DNA from: Arcuatula senhousia
Lineage: Eukaryota; Mollusca; Bivalvia; Mytilida; Mytilidae
Assembly: GCA_963971305.1 (NCBI GenBank)
Contig: OZ020313.1
Span: 56,616,203-56,680,202 of the forward strand
DNA length: 64,000 nt
Direction of reading: 5' to 3'
Positions within the stretch are counted from its first letter, which is position 1; the number at the start of each line of letters is the position of its first letter. Below, in pieces: positions 1,328 to 64,000 of the stretch. The position numbers were made by a program, and so were the translations under genes. The notes below the pieces were generated by a model, which had not been told where the DNA came from, made no database searches, and saw only the letters and a list, made by a program, of their open reading frames with translations.

Positions 1328-1357
1328 AAGTCGCCCAAAACAAAGTTTGGGAGACTT
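1328..1357 (+). repeat. Type-G head hairpin (outermost element of cluster 1)
   Basis: AAGTCGCCCAAAAC, then AAA, then GTTTGGGAGACTT forms an imperfect stem. Its left arm AAGTCGCCCAAAA is the exact reverse complement of TTTTGGGCGACTT in the last tail of the cluster at 11848-11860. It marks the 5' end of the outermost element. Confidence 0.85.
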
Positions 1358-1384
1358 ATTGTTTTTGCACCGTTTCTTATTATT

Positions 1385-1417
1385 ATGTCCCCGACCACGA
1401 AGTGTCGTCGGGGACAT
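1385..1417 (+). repeat. Type-P' head hairpin
   Basis: ATGTCCCCGAC, then a CAC-GAA-GTG stem tip, then GTCGTCGGGGACAT. It is followed by TATTGTTTTTACTCCGTTTC; the spacer has ACTCC where type P has GCTCGG. The same head variant recurs at 58739 and 63463. By nesting it belongs with the atypical tail at 11375-11410, which has GGGGACAT and a different terminal hairpin. Confidence 0.8.
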
Positions 1418-1450
1418 ATTGTTTTTACTCCGTTTCTTATTTTTCTTCTT

Positions 1451-1628
1451 ATTATTATTATGTCCCCGAACACGAAGTGTCGGGGACATATTGTTTTTGC
1501 TCGGTTTCTTATTATTATTATGTCCCCGAACACGAAGTGTCGGGGACATATTGTTTTTGCTCGGTTTCTTATTATTATTATGTCCCCGAACACGAAGTGT
1601 CGGGGACATATTGTTTTTGCTCGGTTTC

Positions 1629-1666
<38 letters not shown>

Positions 1667-1680
1667 TTTCTCGGTATTCT
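1451..1680 (+). repeat. 60-bp tandem array of type-P heads and (TTA)n run
   Basis: Three copies of a 60-bp unit: a 30-nt hairpin at 1460-1489, 1520-1549 and 1580-1609, then TATTGTTTTTGCTCGGTTTC and a short TTA run. The copies are identical over the hairpin and spacer. They are followed by a (TTA)n run at about 1628-1666. The chance ORFs across this array are repeat artefacts. Confidence 0.9.
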
Positions 1681-2825
1681 GGATCGTGAACTTGTCCACC
1701 TCATTTTTTCGACATCTTTTAAGGTAGGAATCTGAAAATTCATAAATCAAGAGTATGGAATGGGAGATTGTGCTTTTTGTATTTTTCGCCGAAATCGAAC
1801 GACCCCATATAGGTCAAAAAAGGGCCTCAAAATGGCTCCTCGAAAACGAAGTTGAATTTTTCCTGGCATTTCTGATCCTGCAGGGGTAGGAAAAATTCCC
1901 TTATAGGTTAAGTGCGGATATACAATACCTTTCATTTAAAAAAAAAAATTTGAAAATCGGACTTACCGTTTTCAAAATTTTGCAAAAAATCGAAAATTAT
2001 TTTTTTTGTAATATTGAGTTATCTTTCTTTGTACCATATATTTTGTGATATTAATGAAAAAAATTCTCAACTTTGTAATTTCTTAATGAAAATTGGTTTA
2101 CAAGGTAATAGTGGTATGCCGAGTTCAATTTTGGAATCGAAATTTTTTTTTTGGGCCGCCATTTTAAAAATGGCCGCCATTTCCCGCCAAAATTAAAATT
2201 ACTCCGATTTTAATGAAAATTGGTATATAAGGTAATAGTGGTATGGCGAGTTGATTTTTGACATCAAAATTTTTTTTATCGTTGGCCATTTTCAAAATGG
2301 CCGCCGTTTCCCGCCAAAATTAAAGTTATTCTGATTTTGATGAAAATTGGTTTACAAGGTAATAGTGGTATGCCGAGTTCAATTTTGGAATCGAAATTTT
2401 TTTTGGGGCCGCCATTTTCAAAATGGCCGCCATTTCCCGCCAAAATTAAAATTACTCCGATTTTAATGAAAATTGGTATATAAGGTAATAGTGGTATGGC
2501 AAGTTGATTTTTGACATCAAACTTTTTTTTATCGTCGGCCATTTTCAAAATGGCCGCCGTTTCCCGCCAAAAATAAATTTACTCAGATTTTAACGAAAAT
2601 TGGTACATAAGGTAATATATGTATGGTGAGTTGATTTTTGACATCGAAATATTTTTATTGTCGGCCATTTTAAAACTGGCCGCCGTTTCCCGCCAAAATT
2701 AAACTTACTCCTATTTTGATGAAAATTGGATAAATTAAGTTATCTCAGATGCCAAGAGACATTGACAAAGAGGGGTACGTGAGGGGACATTTTTGTGACT
2801 CGCTTGCGATCACAATTAGAACTAG
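1580..2825 (+). mobile_element. Type-P element, innermost, first body
   Basis: Head hairpin 1580-1609, (TTA)n, then a body starting TCTCGGTATTCTGG near 1670. About five tandem units of roughly 127 bp follow (recurring GGTAATAGTGGTATG at about 2103, 2231, 2358, 2484, with a GGTAATATATGTATG variant at 2611). Most units hold the palindrome GGCCATTTTCAAAATGGCC. The tail has GGGGACAT at 2783-2790, hairpin TGTGACTCGC/GCGATCACA at 2794-2814 and CTAG at 2822-2825. About 1.25 kb; non-coding. Confidence 0.8.
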
Positions 2826-2845
2826 TTATTATTATTATTATTATT

Positions 2846-4920
2846 ATGTCCCCGAACACGAAGTGTCGGGGACATATTGTTTTTGCTCGGTTTCTTATTA
2901 TTATTATTATTATTATGTCCCCGAACACGAAGTGTCGGGGACATATTGTTTTTGCTCGGTTTCTTATTATTATTATTATTATTATTATTATTCTCGGTAT
3001 TCTGGACCGTGAACTTGTCCACCTCATTTTTTCGACATCTTTTAAGGTAGGAAGCTGAATCTTCATATATCAAGAGTATGGAATGGGAGATTGTGCTTTT
3101 TGTATTTTTCGTCGAAATCGAACGACCCCTTATAGGTAAAAAAAAGGCCTCAAAATGGCTCCTCGAAACCGAAGTTGAATTTTCACCTGGCATTTCTGAA
3201 CCAACTGAGGTAGGAAAAATTTCTTTATAGGTTAAGTGCGGACTTTTAATACCTTTCATTTAAAAAAAAATTTTGAAAATCGGACATACCGTTTTCAAAA
3301 TTTTGCAAAAAAACGAAATTTAATTTTTTTGTCAAATTGAGTTATCTTTCTTTGTTCAGCATATTTTGTCATAGTAATGTAAAAATTCTCAACTTTGTTA
3401 TTTCTTATTGAAAATTGGTTTACAAGGTAAAAGTGGTATGCAAAGTTCATTTTTGGTATCGAAATTTTTTTTTTGCGGCCATTTTCAAAATGGCGGCTTA
3501 AATTTCCCGCCAAAATTTAAACTTGCTCCGATTTTGATGAAAATTGGTATATAAGGTAATAGTGGTATGGCGAGATGATTTTTGACATCAAAATTTTTAT
3601 ATCGTCGGCCATTTTCAAAATGACCGCCTTTTCCCGCCAAAATTAAAGTTACTCCGATTTTGACGAAAATTGGTATATAAAGTAATAGTGGTATGGCGAG
3701 TTGATTTTTGACATAATTTTTTTTTATTGTCGGCCATTTTCAAAATGGCCGCCGTTTCCCACCAAAAATCAAAGTTACTCCGATTTTAATGAAAATTGGT
3801 ATATAAGGTTATTGTGGTATGGCAAGTTTATTTTTGACATCAAAAATTTTTTATCGTTGGCCATTTTCAAAATGGCCGCCGTTGATGAAAATTGGTATAT
3901 TAGGTATTTTCAAATGCCCAAACACATATTGACAAAGAGGGGTACGTGAGGGGACATGTATGTGACTCGCTTGCGATCACAATTAGAACTAGTTATTATT
4001 ATTATTATTATTATTTTTCTCGGTATTCTGGATCGTGAACTTGTCCACCTCATTTTTTCGACATCTTTTAAGGTAGGAAGCTGAAAATTCATAAATCAAG
4101 AGTATGGAATGGGAGATTGTGCTTTTTGTATTTTTCGCCGAAATCGAACGACCCCATATAGGTAAAAAAAGGGCCTCAAAATGGCTCCTCGAAACCGAAG
4201 TTGAATTTTTCCTGGCATTTCTGATCCGGCAGGGGTAGGAAAAATTCCCTTAAAGGTTAAGTGCGGATATACAATACCTTTCATTTAAAAAAAAAATTTT
4301 GAAAATCGGACTTACCGTTTTCAAAATTTTGCAAAAAATCGAAAATTATTTTTTTTGTAAGATTGAGTTATCTTTCTTTGTACCATATATTTTGTGATAT
4401 TAATGAAAATAATTCTCAACTTTGTTATTTCTTAATGAAAATTGGTATATAAGGTAATAGTGGTATGGCGAGTTGATTTTTGACATCAAATTTTTTTTAT
4501 CGTCGGCCATTTTCAAAATGGCCGCCATTTCCCGCCAAAATTAAAGTTATTCTGATTTTGATGAAAATTGGTTTTCAAGGTAATAGTGGTATGGCAAGTT
4601 GATTTTTGACATCAAAATTTTTTTTATCGTCGGCCATTTTCAAAATGGCCGCCGTTTCCCGCCAAAATTAAATTTACTCAGATTTTAACGAAAATTGGTA
4701 TATAAGGTAATAGTTGTATGGCGAGTTGATTTTTGACATCGAAATATTTTCATTGTCGGCCATTTTAAAAATGGTCGCCGTTTCCCGCCAAAATTAAACT
4801 TACTCCTATTTTGATGAAAATTGGATAAATTAAGTTATCTCAAATGCCAAGAGACATTGACAAAGAGGGGTACGTGAGGGGACATTTTTGTGACTCGCTT
4901 GCGATCACAATTAGAACTAG
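2846..4920 (+). mobile_element. Type-P element interrupted by the 2915-3992 element
   Basis: Head 2846-2875. Its body is displaced to 4015-4870 by the nested copy. Tail arm GGGGACAT is at 4878-4885, hairpin 4889-4909, CTAG 4917-4920. It lies after the tail at 2825, in TTA sequence belonging to older copies. Confidence 0.75.
2915..3992 (+). mobile_element. Type-P element
   Basis: Head 2915-2944, body from about 2992, tail arm GGGGACAT at 3950-3957, terminal hairpin 3961-3981, CTAG 3989-3992. It lies inside the (TTA)n of the element opened at 2846. The body carries the palindromic GGCCATTTTCAAAATGG repeat units. Confidence 0.8.
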
Positions 4921-6214
4921 TTATTATTATTTTTCTCGGTATTCTGGACCGTGAACTTGTCCACCTCATTTTTTCGACATCTTTTAAGGTAGGAAGCTGA
5001 AACTTCATAAATCAAGAGTATGTAATGGGAGATTGTGCTTTTTGTATTTTTCGCCCAAATCGAATGACCCCTTATAGGTCAAAAAAGGGCCTCAAAATGG
5101 CTCCTCGAAACCGAAGTTGAATTTCTACCTGGCATTTCTGATCCGGCAGGGGTAGGACAAATTCCTTTAAAGGGTAAGTGTAGACTTTTAATACCTTTCA
5201 TTTAAAAAAAGAATTTTGAAAATCGGACTTACGGTTCTCAAAATTTTGCAAAATATCGAAATTTAATTTTTTTGTCAAATTGAGTTATCTTTCTTGGAAC
5301 AATATATATTGTAATAGTAATGTAAAAATTCTTAACTTTGTTATTTCTTAATGAAAATTGGTTTACAAGGTAATAGTGGTATGCCGAGTTCATTTTTGGT
5401 ATCGATAAAATTTTTTGGCGGCCATTTTTAAAATGGCGGCTAAAATAGCCGCCATTTTCCCGCCAAAACTTAAACTTGCTCCAATTTTTATGAAAATTGA
5501 TATATAAGGCATTAGTGGTATGGCGAGTTGATTTTTGACATCAAAATTTTTTTATTGTCGGCCATTTTCAAAATGGCCGCCGTTTCCCGCCAAAATTAAA
5601 GTAACTCTGATTTTGATGAAAATTGGTATATAAGGTAAAAGTGGTATGGCGAGTTGATTTTTGACATCAAAATTTTTTTATCGTCGGCCATTTTCAAAAT
5701 GGCCGCCGTTTCCCGCCAAAATTAAAGTTACTCTGATTTTGATGAAATTTGGTATATAAGGTAATAGTGGTATGGCGAGTTGATTTTTGACATTAAAATT
5801 TTTATTTCGTCGGCCATTTACAAAATGGCCGCCGTTTCCCGCCAAAATCAAAGTTACTCTGATTTTGATGCAAATTGGTATATAAGGTAAAAGTGGTATG
5901 GCGAACTTATTTTTTACATTAAATTTTTTTTAGCGTCAGCCATTTTCAAAATGGCCGCCATTTCCCGCCAAAATTAAACTTACTCCTATTTTGATGAAAA
6001 TTGGATATAATAAGTTATCTCAAATGCTAAGAGACATTGACAAACAGGGGTACGTGAGGGGACATTTTTGTGACTCGCTTGCGATCACAATTAGAACTAG
6101 TTATTATTAAGTCGCCCAAAACAAAGTTTGGGAGACTTATTGTTTTTGCACCGTTTCTTATTATTATGTCCCCGAACACGAAGTGTCGGGGACATATTGT
6201 TTTTGCTCGGTTTC

Positions 6215-6243
<29 letters not shown>

Positions 6244-6245
<2 letters not shown>

Positions 6246-6292
6246 GTCCCCGAACACGAAGTGTCGGGGACATATTGTTTTTGCTCGGTTTC

Positions 6293-6330
<38 letters not shown>

Positions 6331-7677
6331 TTTCTCGGTATTCTGGACCGTGAACTTGTCCACCTCATTTTTTCGACATCTTTTAAGGTAGTAAGCTGAA
6401 TCTTCATATATCAAGAGTATGGAATGGGAAATTGTGCTTTTTGTATTTTTCGTCGAAATCAAACGACCCCTTATAGGTCAAAAAAGGGCCTCAAAATGGC
6501 TCCTCGAAACCGAAGTTGAATTTTACCTGGCATTTCTGATCTGGCAGGGGTAGGAATAATTCCTTTATAGGTTAAGTGCGGATATTATATACCTTTCATT
6601 TAAAAAAAAAATTTTGAAAATCGGACTTACCGTTTTCAAAATTTTGCAAAAAATCGAAAATTATTTTTTTTGTAAGATTGAGTTATCTTTCTTTGTATTT
6701 TGTATTTTGTAATAGTAATGTAAAAATTCTCAACTTTGTTATTTTTAATGAAAATTGTTTTACAAGGTGATAGTGGTATGCCGAGTTCATTGTTGGTATC
6801 GAAAATTTTTTTTGGCGGCCATTTTCAAAATGGCGGCTAAAATGGCCGCCATTTTCCCGCCAAAATTTAAAGTTACTCCGATTTTGATGAAAATTGGTAT
6901 ATAAGGTAATAGTGGTATGCCGATCTGATTTTTTACATCAAAATTTTTTTATCGTCGGCCATTTTCAAAATGGCTGCCGTTTCCCGCCAAAATTTAAAAT
7001 TACTCAGATTTTAATGAAAATTGGTATATAAGGTAATAGTGGTATGGCGATTTGATTTTTGACATTAAAAATTTTTCATCGTCGGCCATTTCCAAAATGG
7101 CCGCCGTTTCCCGCCAAAATTATAATAACTCAGATTTTAATGAAAATTGGTATTCAAGGTAATAGTGGTATGGCGAGATAATTTTTGACATCAAAAATTT
7201 TTTATTGTCGGCCATTTTCAAAAAGGTTGCCATTTCCCGCCAAAATCAGACTTGCTTCGATTTTAATGAAAATCAATATACAGGGTAATTGTGGTATGGG
7301 GAGTTCATTTTTAGCATCAAATTTTGTTTATGGTCTGATGCAACAGATTTTGGATGCGACTGTGTGACTCTTCTCGAACATATGAGATTAAGGGAGAATA
7401 ATATCTTATATGGATGTCAACCAAAAGCTTCTCCGTAACGTTCTTAGCATTTCATTGAAGAGTGGCTCCATTGTGGAGGACGAGAGCGGTAGTTATGCTC
7501 GCTAGTCACCACAATAGTTTACAAGTACGCTACCAATGCTTGTAAAAAGGGTGCTTCAATGGAATGATAAGGGCGTCATTGCTTAAACAGGGTTCCCACA
7601 AAAGCCAGAAATATTGACAAAGAGGGGTACGTGAGGGGACATGTATGTGACTCGCTTGCGATCACAATTAGAACTAG
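6244..7677 (+). mobile_element. Type-P element, long form with unique 3' segment
   Basis: Head 6244-6273, (TTA)n, body from about 6331, tail arm GGGGACAT 7635-7642, hairpin 7646-7666, CTAG 7674-7677. Unlike most type-P copies, its last 0.4 kb (about 7246-7630) is non-repetitive. That segment is shared almost unchanged with the element ending at 10213. Confidence 0.8.
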
Positions 7678-7688
7678 TTATTATTATT

Positions 7689-8746
7689 AAGTCGCCCAAA
7701 ACAAAGTTTGGGAGACTTATTGTTTTTGCACCGTTTCTTATTATTATTATTAAGTCGCCCAAAACAAAGTTTGGGAGACTTATTGTTTTTGCACCGTTTC
7801 TTATTATTATTATTATTATTATTATTCTTCTGATTCTTTATCGTAAAGTTGTCCTCCCTAATTCAAGAAAATGGTTCAAGGAAATTGAATAACACTTGTT
7901 GGATTGGATAGTGGGTCACTCAAAGGCGTGTAATCAAGTTACGAAATTTTCAAGATGGCCGCCGTTTCAAAATGGCGGCCGTCCGAAAAAGTGGGCGGAA
8001 ATTTTTTTTTCATCGGATCGTCTTGAAAATTGGACATCTGGGTAAAGCGGGTATGCTGAATTCAAATCTGCGACCGGATTTGAAATCCGACTTCCGGTTT
8101 CAAAATGGCGGCTATTTTACTACACCCGCCCCCCTTAAAAATGTGAACTTTGTCCGATTTCAATGAAATTTGACTTCTATACATATTTTATTGTACTGAA
8201 AGGGAAGAAAAAGTATCCAAGGCGATTTTGGGCGACTTGTGTGTTGGCATCCCAACACAAATTATAGCTAGTTATTATTATTTTTCTTATTATTATTATT
8301 ATTCTTCTGATTCTTTATCGAGAATTTGTCCTCCCTAATACAAGAAAACGGTTAAAGGAAATTGAATAACACTTGTTGGATAGGATAGTGGGTCACTCAA
8401 AGTTGTGTAATGCACTTTTAAAATTTTCAAAATGGCCGCCGTTTCAAAATGGCGGCCATCGGAAAAAGTGGGCGGAAATTTTTTTTTCATCGGATCGTCT
8501 TGAAAATTGGTCATCTGGGTAAAACGGGTATGCTGAGCTCAAATCTGCGACCGGATTTGGAATCCGACTTACGGTTTCAAAATGGCGGCCATTTTACTAC
8601 ACCCGCCCCCCTAAAAACGTCAACTTTGTCCGACTTCAACGAATTTTGATTTCTAGACTTATTTTGATGCACTGATTTGAATGGAACTCTATCCAAGGCG
8701 ATTTTGGGCGACTTGTGTGTTGGCATCCCAACACAATTATACCTAG
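7689..8746 (+). mobile_element. Type-G element interrupted by the 7752-8271 element
   Basis: Head 7689-7718. Its body (TTCTTCTGATTC near 8303) was displaced by the nested type-G copy. Tail TTTTGGGCGACTT 8702-8714, hairpin 8716-8735, CTAG 8743-8746. Confidence 0.75.
7752..8271 (+). mobile_element. Type-G element, compact intact copy (520 bp)
   Basis: Head AAGTCGCCC..GACTT 7752-7781, (TTA)n, body starting TTCTTCTGATTCTTTATCG near 7825. The body has GATGGCCGCCGTTTCAAAATGG and a CCCGCCCCCCTT block. Tail: TTTTGGGCGACTT 8226-8238, hairpin TGTGTTGG-CATC-CCAACACA 8240-8259, CTAG 8268-8271. A good reference copy of this subfamily. Confidence 0.85.
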
Positions 8747-10671
8747 TTATTATTATTTTTCTCGGTATTCTGGACCGTGAACTTGTCCACCTCATTTTTT
8801 CGACATCTTTTAAGGTAGGAAGCTGAATCTTCATATATCAAGAGTATGGAATGGGAGATTGTGCTTTTTGTATTTTTCGTCGAAATCGAACGACCCCTTA
8901 TAGGTAAAAAAAGGGCCTCAAAATGGCTCCTCGAAACCGATGTTGAATTTTTACCTGGCATTTCTGATCCGGCAGAGATAGGACAAATTCCTTTATGGGG
9001 TAAGTGTGGACTTTCAATACCTTTCATTTAAAAAAAAAATTTTGAAAATCGGACTTACGGTTTTCAAAATTTTGCAAAAAATCGAAATTTAATTTTTTTG
9101 TCATATTGAGTTATCTTTCTTTGTACCTTGTATTTTGTAATAGTAATGTATAAATTCTCAATTCTTAATGAAAATTGGTTTACAAGGTAATAGTGGTATG
9201 CCGAGTTCATTTTTGGTATCGAAAATTTTTTTTGGCGGCCATTTTCAAAATGGCGGCTTAAATTTCCCACCAAAATTTAAACTTGCTCCGATTTTGATGA
9301 AAATTGGTATATAAGGTAATAGTGGTATGGCGAGATGATTTTTGACATCAAAATTTTTCTATCGTCGGCCATTTTCAAAATGGCCGCCATTTCCCGCCAA
9401 AATTAAAGTTACTCCGATTTTGACGAAAATTGGTATATAAGGTAATAGTGGTATGGTGAGATGATTTTTGACATCGGATTTTTTTTTATAGTCGGCCATT
9501 TTCAAAATGGCCACCGTTTTCCGCCAAAATTAAAGTTACACCAATTTTGATGAAAATCGGTATTTGAGGTAATAGTGGTATGCTGAGTTGATTTTCGGAA
9601 TGAATTTTTTTTTATCGTCGGCCATTTTCTAAATGGCCGCCGTTTTCCGCCAAAATTAAAGTAACTCTGATTTTCATGAAAACTCGTATATAAGGTAACA
9701 GTGGTATGGCGAGTTGATTTTTGACATTGAAATTTATTTATGGTCGGCCATTTTCAAAATGGCCACTGTTTCCCGCCAAAATTAAACTTACTCCGATTTT
9801 AATGAAAATTAATATACAGGGTAATTGTGGTATGGGGAGTTCATTTTTAGCATCAAATTTTGTTTATGGTCCGATGCAACAGCTTTTGGATGCGACTGTG
9901 TGATTCTTCTCGACTATATGAGATTAAGGGAGAATAATATCTCATATGGATGTCAACCAAAAGCTTCTCCGTAACGTTTTTAGCATTTCATTGAAGAGTG
10001 GCTCCATTGTAGAGGACGAGAGCGGTAGTTATGCTCGCTAGTCACTACAATAGTTTACAAGTACGCTACCAATGCTTGTAAAAAGGGTGCTTCAATGGAA
10101 TGATAAGGGCGTCATTGCTTAAACAGGGTTCCCACAAAAGCCAGAAATATTGTCAAAGAGGGGTACGTGAGGGGACATGTATGTGACTCGCTTGCGATCA
10201 CAATTAGAACTAGTTATTATTATTATTCTTCTGATTCTTAATCGTAAAGCTGTCCTCCCTAATACAAGAAAACGGTTCAAGGAAATTGAATAACACTTGT
10301 TGGATTGGATAGTGGGTTACCTAAAGGCGTGCAATGAAGTTTTGAAATTTTCAAGATGGCCGCCGTTTCAAAATGGCGGCCATCGGAAAAGTGGGCGGAA
10401 ATTTTTTTTTCATTGGATCGTTTTGAAAATTGGTCATCTGGGTAAAACAGGTATGCTGAATTCAAATCTGCGACCAGATTTGAAATCCGACTTACGGTTT
10501 CAAAATGGCGGCCATTTTACTACACCCGCCCCCCTTAAAAATGTGAACTTTGTCCGATTTCAATGAAATTTGATTTCTATACATATTTTATTGTACTGAA
10601 TGGGAAGAAATAGTATCCAAGGCGATTTTGGGCGACTTGTGTGTTGGCATCCCAACACAAATTATAGCTAG

Positions 10672-11340
10672 TTCTTTTTTCTTTTTCTTCCGTCAACCTG
10701 ATACACGAACTTGTCCGGAGTTGTTCTCGGAAATGGGTGGACCGATCGATCTGAAACTTGGAGGGGTGATAGGTCTCAAGGTCCTACTGAATGTTTTTGC
10801 GTTTAGAATTTCAAAATGGCCGCCATTTCCAAGATGGCCGCCAAAAACCGAAAAATTATTACCTTCATTTTCTCGAAAACCACTTAATGAAATTCAACGA
10901 AACTTGGTATACATGTTCAGGAACATAATTGGAAATTTTTTGGCCAAAAACAAATTTCGCGAGTGGCGGCCATTTTGAAAAATGGCCGAAAAACGTCGAA
11001 AAGTGTAAACATTGTCCGATTTCAACAAAACTTGGTATACAGGGTATATGGGTGATGGCGACTCACGGCGCATTGTCAGAATTTCCGTATTGGTCGCCAT
11101 TTTCAAGATGGCCGCCGAAAATGGCGAAAAATGTAAACATTGTCCGATTTCAACGAAACTTGGTATACAGGGTATATGGGTGATGGCGACTCAAGGCGCA
11201 TTGTTAGAATATCCATAATGGCCGCCTTTTTCAAGATGGCCGCCAAAAATCAAGACAAATATAAACATTGTTCTATTTTAACGAAACTTGGTATACAGGA
11301 TATATGGGTGATGGCGACTCACAGCGCATTGTCAAAATTC
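10672..11340 (+). repeat. Body with about 128-bp tandem units
   Basis: CGATTTCAACRAAACTTGGTATACAGGGTATATGGGTGATGGCGACTC recurs from about 11017, 11146 and, diverged, 11274. Each unit also has a C/GATGGCCGCC word. Overlapping small ORFs here are products of the repeat. Confidence 0.8.
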
Positions 11341-11847
11341 TGTTGAAGAGGACAGACATCAAATGAGAACGGGAGGGGACATCCCACGTTTCGGGAAACG
11401 TAAATTTTAATTATTATTATTATTATTTTTCTTATTATTATTATTATTCTTCTGATTCTTTATCGAGAATTTGTCCTCCCTAATACAAGAAAACGGTTAA
11501 AAGAACTTGAATAACACTTGTTGGATAGGATAGTGGGTCACTCAAAGGCGTGTAATCATGTTTTGAAATTTTCAAGATGGCTGCCGTTTCAAAATGGCGG
11601 CCGTCCGAAAAAGTGGGCGGAAATTTTTTTTTTGTCGGATCGTCTTGAAAATTGGTCATCTGGGTAAAGCGGGTATGCTGAGTTCAAATCTGCGACCGGA
11701 TTTGAAATCCAACTTCCGGTTTTAAAATGGCGGCCATTTTACTACACCCGCCCCCCTTAAAAATGTGAACTTTGTCCGATTTCAATGAAATTTGATTTCT
11801 ATACATATTTTATTGTACTGAATGAGAAGAAATAGTATCCAAGGCGA

Positions 11848-11893
11848 TTTTGGGCGACTTGTGTGTTGGCATCCCAACACAAATTATAGCTAG
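11848..11893 (+). repeat. Type-G tail closing cluster 1
   Basis: TTTTGGGCGACTT (11848-11860), hairpin TGTGTTGG-CATC-CCAACACA, then ATTATAGCTAG ending at 11893. The next base starts the right half of the split host repeat, which fixes the 3' terminus. Confidence 0.9.
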
Positions 11894-12035
11894 TTAGTTT
11901 TACCGTTCTATGCTCTTCATAATCATAAAGTGTTTGACATTTTCAATAGTTTTGGTAGAGCGCCTCTTGAATAGACTAAACGCGCGTCAGGCGAAGCACA
12001 ATTTATTGTCTGGAACTTTGTTGTCATTTGTATGT
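11894..12035 (-). repeat. Right half of the interrupted 360-bp repeat copy
   Basis: Reverse complement of 12775-12921: shared words GTTCTATGCTCTTCAT, AGAGCGCCTCT, ACGCGCGTCAGGCG and GTCTGGAACTTTGTTGTC. It continues the segment that ends at 1327. Confidence 0.85.
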
Positions 12036-12770: not shown

Positions 12771-13489
12771 AATACAAATGACAACAAAGTTCCAGACAAT
12801 AAATTTTGTTACGCCTGACGCGCATTTCGTCTATTCAAGACTCATCAGAGGCGCTCTACCTAAAATATTGAAAATGCCAAACACTATATGAATATGAAGA
12901 GCATAGAACAGTAAAAACCAAACATACCAAACTGGGGAACCAAATTATTACTAAGATAATCAACCTATGTCTGGGGTAGGAAGAACCTTAGGGTTTTGAC
13001 AATTTTGAAATTTAGACAGATAATTTAAAACTTTGATGTTTTCTCCAACTTAAAAGTGTTGGTGCCGGAGCGGGCTAACCTCGGGGAATTAACACTCCAC
13101 CAGCAGTGCTAACCTTCACGTGTGTTCGAAATACAAATGACAACAAAGTTCCAGACAATAAATTTTGCTACGCCTGACGCGCATTTCGTCTATTCAAGAC
13201 TCATCAGAGGCGCTCTACCTAAAATATTGAAAATGCCAAACACTATATGAATATGAAGAGCATAGAACAGTAAAAACCAAAAATACCAAACTGGGGAACC
13301 AAACTATCAATAAGATAATCAACCTATGTCTGGGGTAGGAAGAACCTTAGGGTTTTTGACAATTTTGAAATTCAGACGGATAATTTAAAACTTTGATGTT
13401 TTCTCCAACTCAAAAGTGTTGGTGCCGGAGCGGACTAACCTCGGGGAATTAAAACTCCACCAGCAGTGCTAACCTTCACGTGTGTTCGA
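12771..13489 (+). repeat. Two tandem copies of a ~360-bp repeat
   Basis: Copy 1 is 12771-13129 and copy 2 is 13130-13489; a third begins at 13490 and diverges. Both include ACGCCTGACGCGCATTTCG, GGCGCTCTACCTAAAATATT, CTGGGGAACCAAA, GTCTGGGGTAGGAAGAACC and GCCGGAGCGG. The copies differ at only scattered positions, so the duplication is recent. Both are uninterrupted at the place where the third copy (1241-1327 plus 11894-12035) holds cluster 1. A diverged piece also lies in intron 9 at about 43570-43655. Confidence 0.9.
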
Positions 13490-53045: not shown

Positions 53046-53425
53046 ATTATAAATAAAAGATACATTTGTGTAGGTGTGATTACTGTATTAATGGTAGAAA
53101 CTTTGAATGTATAGTGTTAATTGATGTTGTTTATAGACATACATATGTTCTTATAGTTGTCTTATGATATGTTATTTTGCATGAAGCATATGTCTGTATA
53201 TTATCTAAATGATAAGCATGACAAAATTAACATTTAAACTAATGAAACAAATATTTAAGTCTCCCAAACGAAGTTTGGAGACTTATTGTTTTTGTTGCGT
53301 TTCTTATTAAATCCCCGACCACGAAGTGTCGGGGATTTATTGTTTTTGCACCGTTTCTTATTTTTATTATTAAGTCGCCCAAAACAAAGTTTGGGAGACT
53401 TATTGTTTTTGCACCGTTTCTTATT

Positions 53426-54362
53426 ATGTCTCCCAAACAAAGTTTTGGGAGACATATTGCTTTTGTACGGTTTCTTATTATTATTCTTCTTCTTTCTTTC
53501 TTTCTTTCTTTTTTCTTTCCGTGCTAGTTTGTCTACGTGTTTTCTCAGAGATGCTTTGCCAAATCAATATGAAACTTTGGGAACATATAAAGGGTGACCT
53601 GAAGTTTTGCAAACAACTCTTAAAATTTTAAAAATGGCCGCCGTTTCTGTGGAAACAGGAAAAGGTTATTATATAGGACATTGCAATATCTAGGTAACCT
53701 AGGTGCGCAGGGTTCTGAAATTTTGCAGGCAGATAGTGCAAAAGGTGCTCTTTAATAATACGGAAAAAAAAAATGAAGCGATATTTACGGTTTTCGAGAT
53801 ATTAATGAAAATGTGATTTAAAGGGAGATAATCGGGTCAAAATTTTAATAAAAACTTCAAAGTTGTCTGATTATGATGAAAATTGGTATACTGATAGATT
53901 ATGATGTTGCGAGTAATATTCTATAACTAAAATAAAAATTTGACGATGGCGGCCATTTTGAATCCAAGATGGCCGCCAAAATTTCAAAGTGGTCTGATTA
54001 TGATGAAAATTGGTATACTGATAGATTATGATGTTGCGAGTAATATTCTATAACTAAAATAAAAATTTGACGATGGCGGCCATTTTGAATCCAAGATGGC
54101 CACCAAAATTTCAAAGTGGTCTGATTATGATGAAAAATGGTATACTGATAGATTATGATGTCGTGAGTAATATTCTATAACTAAGATTAAAATTTGACAA
54201 AGGCAGCCATTTTGAATCCGAGATGGCCGCCAAAATTTTGAAGTGCTCTGATTTACATGAAATTTGATTTTTAAGGTTTTATTTACATGCTGAAGAGAAT
54301 AGTGGCAATGGGAGTTTGTTTGGGAGACATTCGTGTTTGCATCCAAACACAATCATACCTAG
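53426..54362 (+). mobile_element. Type-M element
   Basis: Head ATGTCTCCCAAAC..TTTTGGGAGACAT 53426-53455, spacer TATTGCTTTTGTACGG. Body holds three near-identical ~125-bp units (GATGGCGGCCATTTTGAATC near 53945, 54072). Tail GTTTGGGAGACAT 54318-54330, hairpin GTGTTTG-CATC-CAAACAC 54333-54350, CTAG 54359-54362. The only M head and only M tail in the window pair with each other. Confidence 0.85.
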
Positions 54363-54373
54363 TTATTATTATT

Positions 54374-54888
54374 AAGTCGCCCAAAACAAAGTTTGGGAGA
54401 CTTATTGTTTTTGCACCGTTTCTTATTATTATTATTATTATTATTCTTCTGATTCTTTATCGTAAAGTTGTCCTCCCTAATACAAGAAAACGGTCCAAGG
54501 AAATTGAATGACACTTGTGAGATTGGATAGTGGGTCACTCAAAGTTGTGTAATGCACTTTTGAAATTTTCAACATGGTCGCCGTTTCAAAATGGCGGCCA
54601 TCGGAAAAAGTGGGCGGAAATTTTTTTTTCATCGGATCGTCTTGAAAATTGGTCATCTGGGTAAAGCGGGTATGCTGAACTCAAATCTGCGACCGGATTT
54701 GAAATCCGACTTACGGTTTTAAAATGGCGGCCATTTTACTACACCCGCCCCCCTAAAAACGTCAACTTTGTCCGATTTCAACGAAATTTGATTTCTAGAC
54801 TTATTTTGCTGCACTGATTTGAATTGAACTCTATCCAAGGCGATTTTGGGCGACTTGTGTGTTGGCATCCCAACACAATTATACCTAG
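54374..54888 (+). mobile_element. Type-G element, intact 515-bp copy
   Basis: Head 54374-54403, body from TTCTTCTGATTC near 54443, tail TTTTGGGCGACTT 54844-54856 with hairpin and CTAG 54885-54888. Nothing is inserted in its TTA run. Same layout and near-same length as 7752-8271. Confidence 0.85.
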
Positions 54889-54965
54889 TTATTATTCTTA
54901 TTATTATTAAGTCGCCCAAAACAAAGTTTCGGAGACTTATTGTTTTTGCACCGTTTCTTATTATT

Positions 54966-56400
54966 ATGTCCCCGAACACGAAGTGTCGGGGACATATTGT
55001 TTTTGCTCGGTTTCTTATTATTATTTTTTTTTTTTTATTATTATTATTCTTAGTATTCTTTAGTGTGAACTTGTCCGCTCGATTTAAAGAACATCTTTAA
55101 AGGTAGGAAGCTGAAACTTCATATATCAAGAGTATGGAGTGTGAAATTGTGTAATCAGGTTTTTTCGTCAAAATCAAACGACCCCTTATAGGGTAAATAG
55201 GGGCCTGAAAATGGCTCCTCAAAATCAAAGTTGAATTTTTACTGGCATTTCCAAACCGGCTGGATTAGGGAAAATTCCTTTCACTATGTAGTAGGTATAT
55301 ATAAGAGGTATCATACAAAAAAAGAATTTTTAAAATCGGACTTACCGTTTTCAAAATTTTGCAAAAAAACGAAAAATAAGTTTTAAAGGGGAGATAATCC
55401 AAATTGAATTTTTGGAAAAATTTAAAACTTCATTATTTTTAAATGAAAATTTGTATTTAAGGTAATTGGGGTATGCCGAGTTTATTTTTGGTATCCAATT
55501 TTTTTTTTTCGTCGGCCATTTTCAAAATGGCCGCCATTTCCGATTAAAATTAAACTTGGTCCGATTTTAATGAAAATTGGTAGTAAAGGTAATTGGGGTA
55601 TGCCAAGTTCATTTCTGGTATCGAATTATTTTTATCGGCCTCCATTTTCAAAATGGCCGCCACTTCCAGTAAAAATTGAACTTGCTCTGATTTTAACGGA
55701 AATTGATATATAAGGGTTTTGAAGGATGACGAATTGATGCGCGTTGTCGAAAATGTCGAAAAATTCAAAATGGCCGCCACTTCCGGTAAAAATTGAACTT
55801 GCTCCGATTTTAACGAAAATTGATATCTAAGGGTTTTGAAGGATGGCGAATTGATGCGCGTTGTCGAAAATGTCGAAAAATTCAAAATGGCCGCCACTTC
55901 CGGTAAAAATTGAACTTGCTCCGATTTAACGAAAATTGATATCTAAGGGTTTTGAAGGATGGCGAATTGATGCGCGTTGTTGAAAATGTCGAAAAATTCA
56001 AAATGGCCGCCACTTCCGGTAAAAAATTCAACTTGCTCCGATTTTAACCAAAATTGATATCTAGGGGTTTCGAATGATAACGAATTGAGGCGCGTTGTCG
56101 AAAAATTCAAAATGGCCGCCAATTCCGGTAAAGATTTAACTTGTTCCGATTTTAACGAAAATTAATATCTAGGGGTTTTGAAGGTTATTCAATTGAGAAG
56201 TGTTGTCGAAAATGTCGAAAAATTCAAAATGGCTGCCACTTTCGGAAAAATTCAACTTGTTCAGATTTAAACGAAAATTGATATTCTAGCATTATAATGG
56301 ATGGTGAACAGAAAAATGTGTTCAAAGAAGCCAGATATTAACAACGAGGGGTACGTGAGGGGACATCTGTGACTCGCTTTGCGATCACAATTATACCTAG
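54966..56400 (+). mobile_element. Type-P element, variant body
   Basis: Head 54966-54995. Body begins with GTGTGAACTTGTCCGCTCG near 55065 and has about 117-bp units (ATGGCCGCCACTTCCGG, GGCGAATTGATGCGCGTTGT). Tail GGGGACAT 56359-56366, hairpin TGTGACTCGC..GCGATCACA, CTAG 56397-56400. Confidence 0.8.
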
Positions 56401-56414
56401 TTATTATTATTATT

Positions 56415-56925
56415 AAGTCGCCCAAAACAAAGTTTGGGAGACTTATTGTTTTTGCACCGTTTCTTATTATTATTATTATTCTTCTGATTCTTTATCGTAA
56501 AGTTGTCCTCCCTAATACAAGAAAATGGTTCAAGGAAATTGAATAACACTTGTTGGATTGGATAGTGGGTCACTCAAAGGCGTGTAATCAAGTTTTGAAA
56601 TTTTCAAGATGGCCGCCGTTTCAAAATGGCGGCCGTCGGAAAAAGTGGGCGGAAAATTTTTTTTCATCGGATCGTCTTGAAAATTGGTAACCTGGGTAAA
56701 GCGGGTATGCTGAATTCAAATCTGCGACCAGATTTGAAATCCGACTTCCGGTTTCAAAATGGCGGCCATTTTACTACACCCACCCCCCTTAAAAATGTGA
56801 ACTTTTTCCGATTTCAATGAAATTTGATTTCTATACATATTTTATTGTACTGAATGGGAAGAAAAAGTATCCAAGGCGATTTTGGGCGACTTGTGTGTTG
56901 GCATCCCAACACAAATTATAGCTAG
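56415..56925 (+). mobile_element. Type-G element, intact 511-bp copy
   Basis: Head 56415-56444, body from about 56479, tail TTTTGGGCGACTT 56880-56892, CTAG 56922-56925. Confidence 0.85.
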
Positions 56926-58873
56926 TTATTATTCTTCTGATTCTTTATCGTAAAGTTGTCCTCCCTAATACAAGAAAATGGTTCAAGGAAATTGAATAAC
57001 ACTTGTTGGATTGGATAGTGGGTCACTCAAAGGCGTGTAATCAAGTTTTGAAATTTTCAAGATGGCCGCCGTTTCAAAATGGCGGCCGTCGGAAAAAGTG
57101 GGCGGAAATTTTTTTTTCATCGGATCGTCTTGAAAATTGGTCATCTGGGTAAAACGGGTATGCTGAATTCAAATCTGCGACCAGATTTGAAATCCGACTT
57201 CCAGTTTCAAAATGGCGGCCATTTTACTTCACCCGCCCCCCTTAGAAATGTGAACTTTGTCCGATTTCAATGAAATTTTATTTCTATACATATTTTATTG
57301 CACTGAATGGGAAGAAAAAGTATCCAAGGCGATTTTGGGCGACTTGTGTGTTGGCATCCCAACACAAATTATAGCTAGTTATTATTCTTCTGATTCTTTA
57401 TCGAGAATTTGTCCTCCCTAGTACAAGAAAAGGGTCCAAGGAAATTGAATAACACTTGTGAGATAGGATACTGGGTCACTCAAAGTTGTGTAATGCACTT
57501 TTAAAATTTTCAAGATGGCCGCCGTTTCAAAATGGCGGCCATCGGAAAAAGTGGGCGGAAAATTTTTTTTCTTCTGATCGTCTTGAAAATTGGTCATCTG
57601 GGTAAAGCGGGTATGCTGAGTTCAAATCTGCGACCGGATTTGAAATCCGACTTACGGTTTTAAAATGGCGGCCATTTTACTACACCCGCCCCCCTAAAAA
57701 CGTCAACTTTGTCCGATTTCAACGAAATTTGATTTCTAGACTTATTTTGATGCACTGATTTGAATGGAACTCTATCCAAGGCGATTTTGGGCGACTTGTG
57801 TGTTGGCATCCCAACACAATTATACCTAGTTATTCTTCTTCTTCTTCCGGACAGAACTTTGTCCGTAGGATTTCTCGAAGACGAAAAGACATAGGTCAAT
57901 GAAACTTACCAGAAAAATAGGTCACCACTAGGAGAAGGTCTTTCCGATTTCGAAATTTTAAAAATGGCGGCCATCTTGGATTGGCGGCCATTTTGAATTT
58001 GAAAAAAATACAAAATAAATCATAAAAAATCACAAAAAATATGGATATGAACCAAAATAGGTTTATAGGTCAATATTAAGGTCCCGGACAATATGCGACC
58101 ATTTTCCGAAAAATCCAAGATGGCCGCCATATTCAAAATGGCCGCCAAAGTGCGAAAATTGAAAAGTTGTCCGATTTCAACGAAAATTGGCATTAAAGTC
58201 AATATTGATATCACGAACAACATGGGGACATTTTGGAACAAATCCAAGATGGTCGTCATATTCAAAATGGCCGCCAAAGTGCGAAAATTTAAAAGTTGTC
58301 CGATTTCAACGAAAATTGGCATTTAGGTCAATATTGATATTATGAACAACATGGTGACATTTTGGAACAAATCCAAGATGGCCATCATATTCAAAATGGC
58401 CGCCAAAATGCGAAAATTAAAAAGTTGTCCGATTTCAACGAAAATTGGCATTTAGGTCAATATTGATATTACGAACAACATGGTGACATTTTTGAACAAA
58501 TCCAAGATGGCTGTCATATTCAAAATGGCCGCCAAAGTGGGAAAATTAAAAAGTTGTCCGATTTCAACTAAAATTGGCATTTAGGTCAATATTGATATTA
58601 CGAACAACATGGTGACATTTTCGAACAAATCCAAGATGGCCACCGAAGTCTGAAAAGCTGAACAAAATTGTGACAAAAGTGGGCACGGGAGGGGATTTCT
58701 TTGTGACTTGCTTGCAATCACAATCAGCACTTGTTATTATGTCCCCGACCACGAAGTGTCGTCGGGGACATATTGTTTTTACTCCGTTTCTTATTTTTCT
58801 TATTATTATTATTATTAAGTCACCGACCACGAAGTGTCGGAGACTTATTGTTTTTGCACCGTTTCTTATTATT

Positions 58874-58985
58874 ATGTCCCCGAACACGAAGTGTCGGGGA
58901 CATATTGTTTTTGCTCGGTTTCTTATTATTATTATTATGTCCCCGAACACGAAGTGTCGGGGACATATTGTTTTTGCTCGGTTTC

Positions 58986-59032
<47 letters not shown>

Positions 59033-61225
59033 TTTCTCGGTATTCTGGATCGTGAACTTGTCCACCTCATTTCTTCGACATCTTTTAAGGTAGGAAGCTG
59101 AAACTTCATATATCAAGAGTATGGAATGGGAGATTGTGCTTTTAGTATTTTTCGTCGAAATCGAACGACTCCTTATAGGTCAAAAAAGGGCCTCAAAATG
59201 GCTCCTCGAAACCGAAGTTGAATTTTACCTGGCATTTCTGATCCGGCAGGGGTAACACAAATTCCTTTATGGGGTAAGTGTAGACTTTCGATACCTTTCA
59301 TTTAAAAAAAAAATTTTGAAAATCGGACTTACGGTTCTCAAAATTTTGCAAAAAATCGAAATTTAATTTTTTTGTCAAATTGAGTTATCTTTCTTGGAAC
59401 AATATATTTTGTAATAGTAATGTAAAAATTCTTAACTTTGTTATTTCTTAATGAAAATTGGTTTACAAGGTAATAGTGGTACGCCGAGTTCATTTTTGGT
59501 ATCGGTAAAAATTTTGGCGGCCATTTTTAAAATGGCGGCTAAAATGGCCGCCATTTTCCCGCCAAAAATTAAACTTGCTCCAATTTTGATGGAAATTGGT
59601 ATATAAGGTAATAGTGGTATGGCGAGTTGATTTTTGACATCAAATTTTTTTTATCGTCGGCCATTTTCAAAATGGCCGCCTTTTCCCGCCAAAATTAAAG
59701 TTACTCTGATTTTGATGAAAATTGATATATAAGGTAATAGTGCTATGGCGAGTTGATTTTTGACATCGAAATTTTTATTTCGTCGGCCATTTTCAAAATG
59801 GCTGCCGTTTCCCGCCAAAAATCAAAGTTACTCCAATTTTAATGAAAATTGGTATACAAGGTTATTGTGGTATGGCGAGTTTATTTTTGATATCAAAATT
59901 TTTTTATCGATTGCCATTTTCAAAATGGCCGCCGTTTCCCGCCAAATTTAAACTTACTCCGATCTTGATGAAAATTGGTATATTAGGTATTCTCAAATGC
60001 CCAAACACATATTGACAAAGAGGGGTACGTGAGGGGACATGTATGTGACTCGCTTGCGATCACAATTAGAACTAGTTATTATTATTATTTTTCTCGGTAT
60101 TCTGGACCGTGAACTTGTCCACCTCATTTTTTTGACATCTTTTAAGGTAGGAAGCTGAATCTTCATATATCAAGAGTATGGAATGGGAGATTGTGCTTTT
60201 TGTATTTTTCGTCGAAATCGAACGACCCCTTATAGGTAAAAAAAGGGCCTCAAAATGGCTCCTCGAAACCGAAGTTGAATTTTTACCTGGCATTTATGAT
60301 CCGGCAGGGGTAGGAAAAATTCCTATATAGGTAAAGTGCGGATATTTAATACCTTTCATTTTAAAAAAAAATTTTGAAAATCGGACCTACCGTTTTCAAA
60401 ATTTTGCAAAAAATCGAAAATTAATTTTTTTGTAAGATTGAGTTATCTTCCTTTGTACAATATATTTTGTAATATAGTAATGAAAAAAATTCTCAACTTT
60501 GTTATTTCTTAATGAAAATTGGTTAACAAGGTAACAGTGGTATGCCGAGTTCATTTTTGGATTCGAAAAATTTTTTGGTGGCCATTTCAAAATGGCGGCT
60601 AAAATGGCTGCCATTTTCCCGCCAAAATTTAAACTTGCTCCGATTTTGATGAAAATTGGTATATATGGTAATAGTGGTATGGTGAGTTGATTTTTGACAT
60701 CAAAATTTTTTATCGTCGGCCATTTTCAAAATGGCCGCCGTTTCCCGCCAAAATTAAAATTACTCCGATTTTGATGAAAATTGATAAATAAGGTAATAGT
60801 GGTATGGCGAGTTGATTTTTGACATGAATTTTTTTTTATCGTCAGCCATTTTCAAAATGGCCGCCATTTTCCCGTCAAAATTAAAGTTACTCTGATTTTG
60901 ATGAAAATTGGTATATAAGGTAATAGTGCTATGGCGAGTTGATTTTTGACATCGAAAATTTTATTTCATCGACCATTTTCAAAATGGCCGCCGTTTCCCG
61001 CCAAAAATCAAAGTTACTCCGATTTTAATGAAAATTGGTATATAGAGTAATTTTAACGTTGGCCATTTTCAAAATGGCCGCCGTTTCCCCGCCAAAATTA
61101 AACTTACTCCGATCTTGATGAAAATTGGTATATAAGGTAATCTCAAATTCCAAATAACATATTGACAAAGAGGGGTACGTGAGGGGACATATATGTGACT
61201 CGCTTGCGATCACAATTAGAACTAG
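58874..61225 (+). mobile_element. Type-P element with nested P copy
   Basis: Head 58874-58903, body 60086-61180, tail GGGGACAT 61183-61190, CTAG 61222-61225. Confidence 0.75.
58937..60075 (+). mobile_element. Type-P element
   Basis: Head 58937-58966, long (TTA)n, body from about 59033, tail GGGGACAT 60033-60040, CTAG 60072-60075. Palindromic core units as in cluster 1. Confidence 0.8.
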
Positions 61226-61233
61226 TTATTATT

Positions 61234-61798
61234 ATATCTCCCAAACACTATGTTTGGGAGATATATTGTTTTTACTCTGTTTCTTATTATTATTCTTCTT
61301 CTTCTTTTTTTTCTTCTTCCGGACATGAACGTGTCCGAGTGGTTTCTCAAAAACTACTCAATGGTTCTTTATGAAATTTTGTGAGGTGATAGAGTGGGTC
61401 CCAAAGGTGTGCATGCAATTTTCAAAGATTTCAAAATGGCCGCCGTTTCCATGGAAACAGGTAAAGGTCATAATATAGGACATTGCGATATCTCGGTTAC
61501 CTAGGTGTGTAGGGTTCTGAAATTTTGTAGGTGAGTAGAGCAAAAGGAGCTCTTTAATAATACGAAAAAAAATTTCTGAGCGATATTTACGGTTTTCGAG
61601 TTATTCACGAAAATGCGATTTTTCGAGCCCAAAAATGGGAAAATTGTCAAAATGCTACAATTTCGACAAAATTTGGTATCTAGGGGTTTGAAATGATGGC
61701 GAGTTAGGATGCGGTGTCAAAATTTATGCTAGAGTGACAATATGCGAACGTTTGGGAGATATTTTTGTGTTGGGCATCCCCAACACAGTCAGCACTAG
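61234..61798 (+). mobile_element. Type-V element, intact (565 bp)
   Basis: Head ATATCTCCCAAACACTATGT..GGGAGATAT 61234-61264. Body starts with perfect hairpin CGGACA-TGAACG-TGTCCG (61320-61337). Tail GTTTGGGAGATAT 61750-61762, hairpin TGTGTTGGG..CCCAACACA 61766-61787, CTAG 61795-61798. The only V head and tail, paired. Confidence 0.85.
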
Positions 61799-62701
61799 TT
61801 ATTATTTTTTGTTTTTTTCTCTGACGCAGCTTTGTCCGCAAGATTACGGAAAAGTGTCTGAAACGATTCTCATGAAACTTGGAATATATATAGGGTTGCA
61901 TATGTAGGCGGGCCTCATGGTTTTAAAATTTTCAAAATGGCCGCCATTTTCAAAATGGCCGCCCTCAAATTAGGGTACCGAAAAATTATCTCGGAAACTA
62001 CTGAATGGATTTCGATGAAATTTGGTATGTAGGTAGAAGGGAGTAAGGAAAGTTGAATGGTGGATACAAAAAATTCAAGATGGCCGCCATTTTCAAAATG
62101 GCCGCCGTCAAAAATTGACCAAAATTTTGTCCGCTAAATTTATCTACCTAAACCTCGATGGATTTGCATGAAATTTTGTATATAAATAGACCATTATATG
62201 TAGATGGTTTTTTTACCAAGAAAAAATTTTGCGCGTCGGCCATTTTCAAAATGGCCGCCATCGAAAATTGTAAAATGGGATATATCTAAAACTACTTGAC
62301 GGATTGCAACCAAATTTGGTATTTACGTAGACGGGATTAAGGGAAGTTGAATGGCCAATTCGAAAAAATCAAGATGGCCGCCATTTTCAAAATGGCCGCC
62401 ATCGAAAATTGTAAAATGGTATATTTCTAAAACTACTTGACGGATTGCAACCAAAATTTGGTATTTAGGTAGATGGGAGTAAGGGAAGTTGAATGGCAAA
62501 TTCGAAAAAATCAAGATGGCCGCCATTTTCAAAATGGCCGTCATCGAAAATTGAAAAAAAGGGGGATCTCGGAAACTATTTGACAGATTTCAACACAATT
62601 TTATATGGTGATGCAGTTAAATATGTCGCTTCGAAATACATGCAGTTCAAACGGGAGGTGACTTCTGTGTTGGCATCCCAACACAATCACATCTAGTTAT
62701 T

Positions 62702-63435
62702 AAGTCCCCCAAACAAAGTTTGGGGACTTATTGTTTTTGCACCGTTTCTTATTATTATTATTCTTCTTCCGTTTCTTCCACTTAGTCGTGAACTTGTCCG
62801 GAGATCCCAGAGAAAACGCCTCCACATATCAATATGAAACTTGGCAGGATAATAGATTGTAAAGAAAGGAAGCTTCGTTGACAATCAGAATTTTCAAAAT
62901 GGCCGCAGTTTCCATGGGAACAGGAAAATGGACTAAATATTGGACATTGCAATATTTTGGTAACCTAGGTGCGCAGGGTTCTGAAATTTTGTAGGTTGAT
63001 AGAGCAAAACATTCTCTTTAATAATATGAAAAAAAAATTTGAAGCGATATTTACGGTTTTCGAGATATAAATAAAAATGTGCTTTCAAGGGAGGTAATCG
63101 GGTCAAAATTTTTGTCCGGATCCTAGAAAAAATGACTCAACATATCAAAATGAAACTTGGCCGGATGAAAGATTGGTATGAAAGGAAGCCTTGTCGACAA
63201 TTGGAATTTTCAAAATGGCCGTCGTTTCCGAGAAAATGCGGAAAGGTCATTATATAGGACATTGAAGATATCTCGGTAACCTTGGTGCATAGGACTTTGT
63301 AACTTGGTATGATTATAGAACTTGATCAGTACTACCAAAATACGAAAAAAATTCTGAAGCGGTATTTACAGTTTTCGCGCTATTCACGAATTTGTGATTT
63401 TTTGGGGCCAAAATGAGTTGGGCCAAAGGGGACTT
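62702..63435 (+). mobile_element. Type-W element with fused 3' end
   Basis: Head AAGTCCCCCAAACAAAGTTTGGGGACTT 62702-62729. Body from about 62757 with CGTGAACTTGTCCGGAG. At 63428 GGGGACTT appears where a W tail arm is due, but the sequence goes straight on with ATTGTTTTTGCACCG, which is head spacer. No terminal hairpin or CTAG. Confidence 0.7.
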
Positions 63436-63528
63436 ATTGTTTTTGCACCGTTTCTTATTATTATGTCCCCGACCACGAAGTGTCGTCGGGGACATATTGT
63501 TTTTACTCCGTTTCTTATTTTTCTTATT

Positions 63529-64000
63529 AAGTCCCCCAAACAACGTTTGGGGACTTATTGTTTTTGCACCGTTTCTTATTATTATTATTCTTCCGATTCT
63601 TCCGCTTAGTCGTGAACTTGTCCGGAGATCCCAGAGAAAACGACTCCACATATCAATATGAAACTTGGCAGGATAATAGATTGCAAAGAAAGGAAGCCTC
63701 GTTGACTATTGGAATTTTCAAAATGGCCGCCGTTTCCATGGAAACAGGAAAATGGAATAAATATTGGACATTGCAATATCTCGGTAACCTAGGTGCGCAG
63801 GGTTCTGAAATTTTGTAGATTGATAGAGCAAAACATTCTCTTTAATAATATGAAAAAAAATTTTGAAGCGATATTTAAGGTTTTGGAGATATAAATAAAA
63901 ATGTGATTTCTCAAGGGAGATAATCGGGTTGAAATTTTCAAAGTGCTCTGATTTACATAAAAATTTATATTTAGGGGTTTTTTGACATGCTGAAGAGAAT
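63529..64000 (+). mobile_element. Type-W element, 3' end outside window
   Basis: Head AAGTCCCCCAAACAACGTTTGGGGACTT 63529-63556. Body from about 63588 closely copies 62757-63060. Its last bases (ACATGCTGAAGAGAAT) match the sequence about 30 bp before the M tail at 54318, so its tail should come just past 64000. Confidence 0.75.

Follow-up and report, generated by a model that had tools for sequence, protein, structure and literature searches.

The window analysed here is a stretch of 64,000 nucleotides (nt) from the genome of the mytilid bivalve Arcuatula senhousia (C11:56616203-56680202, in GenBank contig OZ020313.1; genome size 1.036 Gb), and it holds two clusters of short hairpin sequences, which we call heads and tails, set around longer family-specific bodies. 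These heads and tails are the ends of non-autonomous Helentrons (HINEs). We find that the tails of cluster 1 follow one another as the closing brackets of its heads, that this kind of order holds over ten regions of the genome, the window included, and that successive heads almost always keep one phase within a (TTA)n repeat. Cluster 1 is very probably a nest of HINEs, built as new copies inserted into the (TTA)n tracts of resident ones. The mitochondrial COX1 of this genome fits a mytilid host: the nearest named proteins are from Perna canaliculus and a Mytilidae cluster (78%) and from Mytilus trossulus (73%), and one further protein is 89% identical.

Each unit opens with a head hairpin of about 28-36 nt and a linker ending in CTTATT, continues through (TTA)n and a family-specific body, and closes with a sequence X', a second hairpin and, usually, CTAG and then TT. 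The 5' arm of the head begins with an 8-mer, X, which is the 5' subterminal inverted repeat (subTIR); X', the 3' subTIR, is its reverse complement, and a palindrome follows it. Heads and tails were located by script and typed by this 8-mer, which is AAGTCGCC in type G and ATGTCCCC in type P. The heads of cluster 2 are of types AAGTCTCC, AAATCCCC, AAGTCGCC, ATGTCTCC, ATGTCCCC (together with the subtype P'), AAGTCACC, ATATCTCC and AAGTCCCC. In our sample, which comprises the window and regions of contig C1 (nine regions at first, ten with the later addition of C1k), 183 heads with the 5' subTIR and its complementary inverted repeat were found in the first nine regions, three of which were later dropped for odd keys (TGCATGCA, one; AAGGTCTT, two); seven anchor matches lacking a hairpin and tail candidates lacking an end or having a weak hairpin were likewise discarded. 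Where a head and a tail are adjacent, their 8-mers agree in 73 of 74 cases (ten regions). The microsatellite behind the 5' end is (TTA)n, and the span from an innermost head to its body, linker included, is 36-84 nt in P and G. Most typed tails end after the hairpin in CTAG, the CTRR end of canonical Helitrons, and others in CTTG or TTTTAA; the 5' TC of canonical Helitrons is absent from the heads as bounded here, nearly all of whose keys start with A. Apart from one antisense frame through head repeats, cluster 1 contains no stop-to-stop frame of at least 150 amino acids.

The minority 3' end in which TTTTAA replaces CTAG after the hairpin is mostly paired with a distinct head subtype, P'. 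Outside cluster 1, pairing by 8-mer joins P' head to P' tail in both innermost P' pairs and for four of six outer P' heads. The remaining two of these six are joined to P tails, and in one case a P head is joined to a P' tail. At the G-type ends (1328-1361 and 8231-8271), the 5' arm of the head, AAGTCGCCC, is exactly complementary to the tail sequence GGGCGACTT and has one mismatch to the head's own 3' arm, GGGAGACTT, as if head and tail were matched to each other rather than to the head hairpin.

The first-pass annotation had proposed that cluster 1 is a balanced-bracket record of nested insertions, and its central observation holds: heads, bodies and tails lie where it placed them, and the tail order P,P,P,P,P,G,G,P,G,P',G is the last-in-first-out order of the heads (Table 1). 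With P' kept apart from P, this pairing of 12 heads with 11 tails uses every tail. Bodies agree with tails throughout, with P tails behind TCTCGGTATTC (6/6), G tails behind CTTCTGATTC (4/4) and the P' tail behind a third body. When the head labels of the cluster are shuffled, 7 of 4000 arrangements reach 11 typed non-crossing pairs (p of about 0.002 for this cluster alone). The single surplus P head also falls where the annotation had placed it, in an identical 60-bp triplet (1460-1609, with heads at 1460, 1520 and 1580). Our parse leaves the head at 1460 over, an arbitrary choice among three that all fit, and the equal spacing of the three may reflect slippage or chance.

Table 1. Elements and related features of the window, by position
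Feature	Positions	Strand	Basis
Whole nest (cluster 1), outermost G element	1328..11893	+	head 1328-1357, tail 11853-11893, body from 11449; flanks, once joined, match paralogues without the interruption
P' element inside outermost G	1385..11410	+	head 1385-1417, tail 11375-11410 (ends TTTTAA)
Unpaired surplus P head of 60-bp triplet	1460..1489	+	bracket parse
P element inside P'	1520..6100	+	bracket parse
P element, innermost	1580..2825	+	bracket parse
P element	2846..4920	+	bracket parse
P element, innermost	2915..3992	+	bracket parse
G element inside P'	6109..10671	+	bracket parse
P element inside G 6109	6166..10213	+	bracket parse
P element, innermost	6244..7677	+	bracket parse
G element	7689..8746	+	bracket parse
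G element, innermost	7752..8271	+	bracket parse
Two inverted copies of repeat entered by outermost G element	12772..13389 (12772-13029, 13131-13389)	-	paralogous empty sites
Cluster 2	53257..63556	+	16 heads, 11 tails; 11/11 tails pair without crossing

Cluster 2 obeys the same rule. None of 4000 shuffles of its head labels reaches 11 typed non-crossing pairs, and the five heads left open perhaps close beyond the window. The further regions were chosen, non-randomly, for abundant P-body matches on contig C1, or in the case of C1k for a match to the Rep domain. Together the ten regions yield 202 heads and 196 tails. For 16 of the tails the stack was already empty, and 22 of the heads were left open, partly owing to region cuts; heads of unkeyed types escape the scan. 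The P/P' split and two tail ends lacking CTAG were defined post hoc, on sequences already seen, and two keys were added before the ten-region count. Since an adjacent head and tail are trivially one element, we counted such inner pairs apart from outer, non-adjacent ones. Outer pairs match by 8-mer in 92 of 106 cases, compared with a mean of 45.7 and a maximum of 63 in 5000 permutations of labels within regions. In the first nine regions, strict stack order gives 148 matches in 162 pops (mean 55.7 and maximum 71 in 300 shuffles of head labels), and queue (first-in-first-out) order gives 68 of 162. Taken region by region in an earlier set, the observed number of outer matches was reached in 0 of 5000 permutations in the window, in C1a and in C1e. 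Two further nests close when the sequence is extended: the tails of C1f that at first had no head (M,G,P,P,P,G) are all closed by heads in the DNA upstream (11 heads, 11 tails, 11/11 in order), and the unmatched P,G,G,G of C1k are closed by a further 1.5 kb (10/10 pairs, counting one head and one tail that are each one base off type). Both closures are consequences of the earlier parse rather than predictions written beforehand, and the added DNA was sought partly for Helentron ends.

Because only 72 of 193 tails come directly after a head, the simple head-to-tail concatemer that the first-pass annotation had rejected is indeed excluded. A subtler alternative is aberrant rolling-circle replication, described in a review (PMC12628747), which would yield tandem arrays in which many 5' ends share a single 3' end, a pattern reported from plant centromeric Helitrons. 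It would account for runs of heads, for the identical triplet with its one spare, and for the genome-wide excess of exact P heads over exact P tails (2082 versus 1903). Against this, heads and tails in our regions are near balance and pair by type, a single nest holds bodies of different families, and neighbouring P bodies are as unlike as random P copies. We therefore disfavour aberrant replication as a general account, for which it is highly improbable, while single spare heads could be explained by it.

The position of the heads points to how the brackets arose. Guests almost always sit in the (TTA)n tract behind the host's head, in one repeat phase and in the host's orientation. Among 195 heads, 183 lie within 80 nt of the preceding head or tail, and across the ten regions gaps of up to 80 nt are 0 mod 3 between head and head in 121 of 123 cases and 2 mod 3 between tail and head in 67 of 67. 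The bodies keep the same register: the offset from an innermost head to its body is 0 mod 3 in 35 of 35 cases (P 21/21, G 14/14), and that from a guest's tail to the host's body is 2 mod 3 in 71 of 72 (P 42/43, G 29/29), counts that leave out 3 P and 14 G bodies with no recognised start. Given these phases, removal of a guest together with two T's restores the (TTA)n repeat. The element body covered amounts to about 151.6 kb and offers 21619 TT steps; of the 12 typed heads with no head or tail close upstream, one lies within such a body. Orientation is equally constrained, with 179 heads on one strand and 0 on the other within regions; genome-wide, by exact patterns, a second P head follows a P head within 30 nt in 781 cases, whereas a reversed P tail does so in none. 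Insertion sites are T-rich, and of 146 sense-strand (TTA)n tracts of at least five units in the DNA sampled for nests, 142 directly follow a keyed head or tail and the remaining four adjoin, by eye, heads or tails of types not keyed at the time. No tract of this length occurs on the opposite strand of the same DNA, a sample chosen for nests, in which targeting of the element and targeting of the repeat are not separable.

The flanks of cluster 1 bear on the outermost event. Joined together, 1078-1327 and 11894-12143 align continuously over the junction with five paralogous sites at 82-86% identity: the two inverted copies in the window (Table 1), each with a one-base gap a few bases from the join, two sites on C3 and one on C15. 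The 10.6 kb as a whole has thus been inserted into a dispersed repeat. A search with the right flank (11894-12893) returned no empty allele or second haplotype, the sole full-length match among the best 40 of 8575 candidates being the locus itself. Within this flank, about 240 bp at 12248-12490 match dozens of dispersed copies at 96-99% identity among the same best 40 of 8575 candidates; this segment is an abundant, young repeat.

P bodies that are neighbours resemble one another no more closely than randomly chosen P copies do, and they are not local copies of one another: among the bodies sampled (67 P and 57 G), from a genome with about 2000 P copies, the median distance between a P host and its direct P guest is 0.069 (44 pairs), compared with 0.068 for all P pairs. 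Nests could also have moved in part as blocks, some of them having been assembled elsewhere; in Fusarium (PMC5148889) and maize (PMC3288121), composite elements that carry several 5' ends have been proposed. In one host-guest pair the nearest neighbours are themselves host and guest, as block movement would leave them, but this is one pair of 92 in a small sample, and we regard such movement as an unlikely addition to nested insertion. Repeat-rich loci also misassemble easily, and our analysis used no sequencing reads; yet copies within a nest mostly differ by several percent, and one grammar and one phase hold in ten regions, so that an assembly artefact is scarcely credible.

Several observations weigh against nested insertion into (TTA)n as we read it. 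Permutation within single regions is often weak, with fractions of 0.047 in C1c, 0.063 in C1h, 0.081 in C1g, 0.18 in C1d and 0.24 in C1b, and of 1.0 in C1f, where one outer pair was then known. Fourteen of the 106 outer pairs mismatch; among those traced, several are due to one missing or extra head or tail. The evidence on the exact target divides between T|T and A|T: the phase within (TTA)n calls for +2 (mod 3) past A..CTAG, the empty sites for none. The one typed head, of the 12 with nothing close upstream, that falls within a P body does so where 1.2 kb is locally duplicated in C1a (local 26243-27452 in the reverse complement of C1:4182001-4230000); the duplicated segment comprises part of a P body and a ATATCTCC element, and this head is the only typed one seen inside a body. 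Finally, going by the medians, G neighbours are somewhat closer than average, at 0.077 for host and guest (27 pairs) versus 0.102 for all G pairs.

The last two points would suit local tandem duplication through (TTA)n tracts, multiplying heads or body-tail units in place, as would three G bodies at 56473-57842 that score as a 453-bp tandem repeat and the 11 of 57 G bodies that share a region with their nearest relative (mean of shuffles 7.4, P value 0.15). Distances among the three tandem G bodies, however, are 0.025-0.102, and for each of them the nearest copy comes from a different region; the nearest relative of a P body lies in the same region in only 3 of 67 cases (shuffle mean 8.1), and 1 of 71 host-guest pairs differs by less than 0.01. 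Within this sample of bodies, duplication in place is thus very unlikely to have built the nests. Nested insertion is supported by typed last-in-first-out order in ten regions, two nests that close, the (TTA)n phase, paralogous empty sites and P bodies as unlike as random copies.

The first-pass annotation had also expected the nest to give a relative age order for about 11 insertions, and here only part of the claim survives. Bracket nesting does give an order, but a partial one: siblings in one host and elements on separate branches stay unordered, and depth is therefore not age across branches. Divergence, the check that the annotation itself had suggested, adds no significant trend with depth in either direction, so the order of insertion rests on structure alone. 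By nearest-neighbour distance, the host appears older in 27 P pairs and the guest in 17 (G 13:11, three ties); the corresponding host-to-guest ratios are 20:24 for divergence from consensus (G 13:13, one tie), 27:17 for terminal branches (G 12:15) and 24:16 for private substitutions with four ties (G 11:11, five ties). These proxies do not separate host from guest, none of the tests reaching 0.05 (lowest P value 0.069); given few private changes per copy and 67 of about 2000 P copies sampled, we take this as evidence in neither direction.

Two of the nests contain autonomous Helentrons with Rep, PIF1 and endonuclease. The first (C1:35982839-35995881, 13.0 kb) is the innermost element of C1f and has frames of 793 amino acids (OTU, DUF6570) and 1552 amino acids (Helitron_like_N Rep, PIF1, Exo_endo_phos endonuclease); its best protein matches, among the best 120 of 360, are from Saccostrea echinata (53% identity, 64% query coverage) and Mytilus edulis (55% identity, 48% coverage). 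The second (C1:38108957-38122336, 13.4 kb) lies behind a P head in C1k and has a single frame of 2066 amino acids with DUF6570, Helitron_like_N Rep, PIF1 and Exo_endo_phos endonuclease. The long frames of both were scanned in two pieces. Their ends, ATGTCTCC and ATGTCACT, share the HINE layout, and neither of these two loci has P or G ends. Matches to Rep number at least 150 genome-wide (the best 150 of 345 candidates).

We propose that a Helentron protein moves the HINEs by rolling-circle transposition, and that P and G would be moved by Helentrons of the kind seen in the nests. A new copy would enter the (TTA)n of a resident copy at one phase and separate the resident head from its body, such that target preference would be the cause of nesting. 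TT occurs on just one strand of (TTA)n, which would make guests keep the orientation of their hosts; and since each guest carries its own (TTA)n, insertion supplies a fresh target and the nest extends towards its centre. We tentatively suggest, as a possibility short of an even chance, that (TTA)n, an array of the site which the element itself prefers, serves as a self-renewing landing pad behind the head and steers new copies from many related families, including autonomous elements, into residents. If so, nests would act as a sink, sparing the host, and would preserve in writing the order of insertion. For about a dozen end types, structure by itself reveals part of the sequence in which many transpositions took place; nearly all sampled guests sit in the elements' own internal repeat, making the idea of evolved safe self-targets directly testable; and repeat finders may label such ordered, complete nests as tandem repeats or shuffled fragments.

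The elements resemble Cg_HINE of Crassostrea gigas, which has a 5' subTIR, a complementary inverted repeat, a microsatellite, central repeats, a 3' subTIR, a palindrome and T-rich targets (PMC7492417). These features, the T-rich targets included, are common to both; unlike in that element as described there, the microsatellite here is (TTA)n and serves as the insertion site of further copies, and the word "nested" is absent from the main text of the Cg_HINE paper. Elsewhere in our window, satellite-like arrays with units of 167-174 bp, a length common among the central repeats of oyster HINEs (PMC7492417), lie at 36618-37425, 45004-45874, 48322-48954 and 50915-51391, and 82-bp repeats built of inverted TTTGATATTCATTTG motifs lie at 16688-17302.

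Drosophila DINE-1/HINE elements and Helentrons (PMC4067079) share with ours the end structure, a partner with Rep, PIF1 and endonuclease, and an OTU domain, which in one of our copies lies in a separate frame. The 3' end here is mostly CTAG, as in the proto-Helentron of that paper rather than in DINE-1/HINE, and its available passages describe no deep same-site nests like those seen here. Self-insertion has been invoked to explain several 5' ends in Fusarium Helitrons (PMC5148889); maize Helitrons preferentially insert near or inside other Helitrons and have multiple termini (PMC3288121), a preference also noted, with multiple termini, in a review (PMC12477314); and shuffled Helitron loci are reported in oyster (PMC12628747). 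The Fusarium and maize accounts, as far as their available text goes, concern few cases, with no typed bracket order, (TTA)n phase or single site. Nested long terminal repeat retrotransposons of plants (PMC6911290) are similar in that nesting is non-random and includes the same family, yet they use another mechanism and broad target regions. In the literature searched by title and start of abstract, chiefly open-access, we found no description of typed nests in which guests share one orientation and an exact phase at a single internal repeat. Earlier work has established HINEs, self-insertion and nesting; within the literature searched, what is new is their site-exact, self-renewing form.

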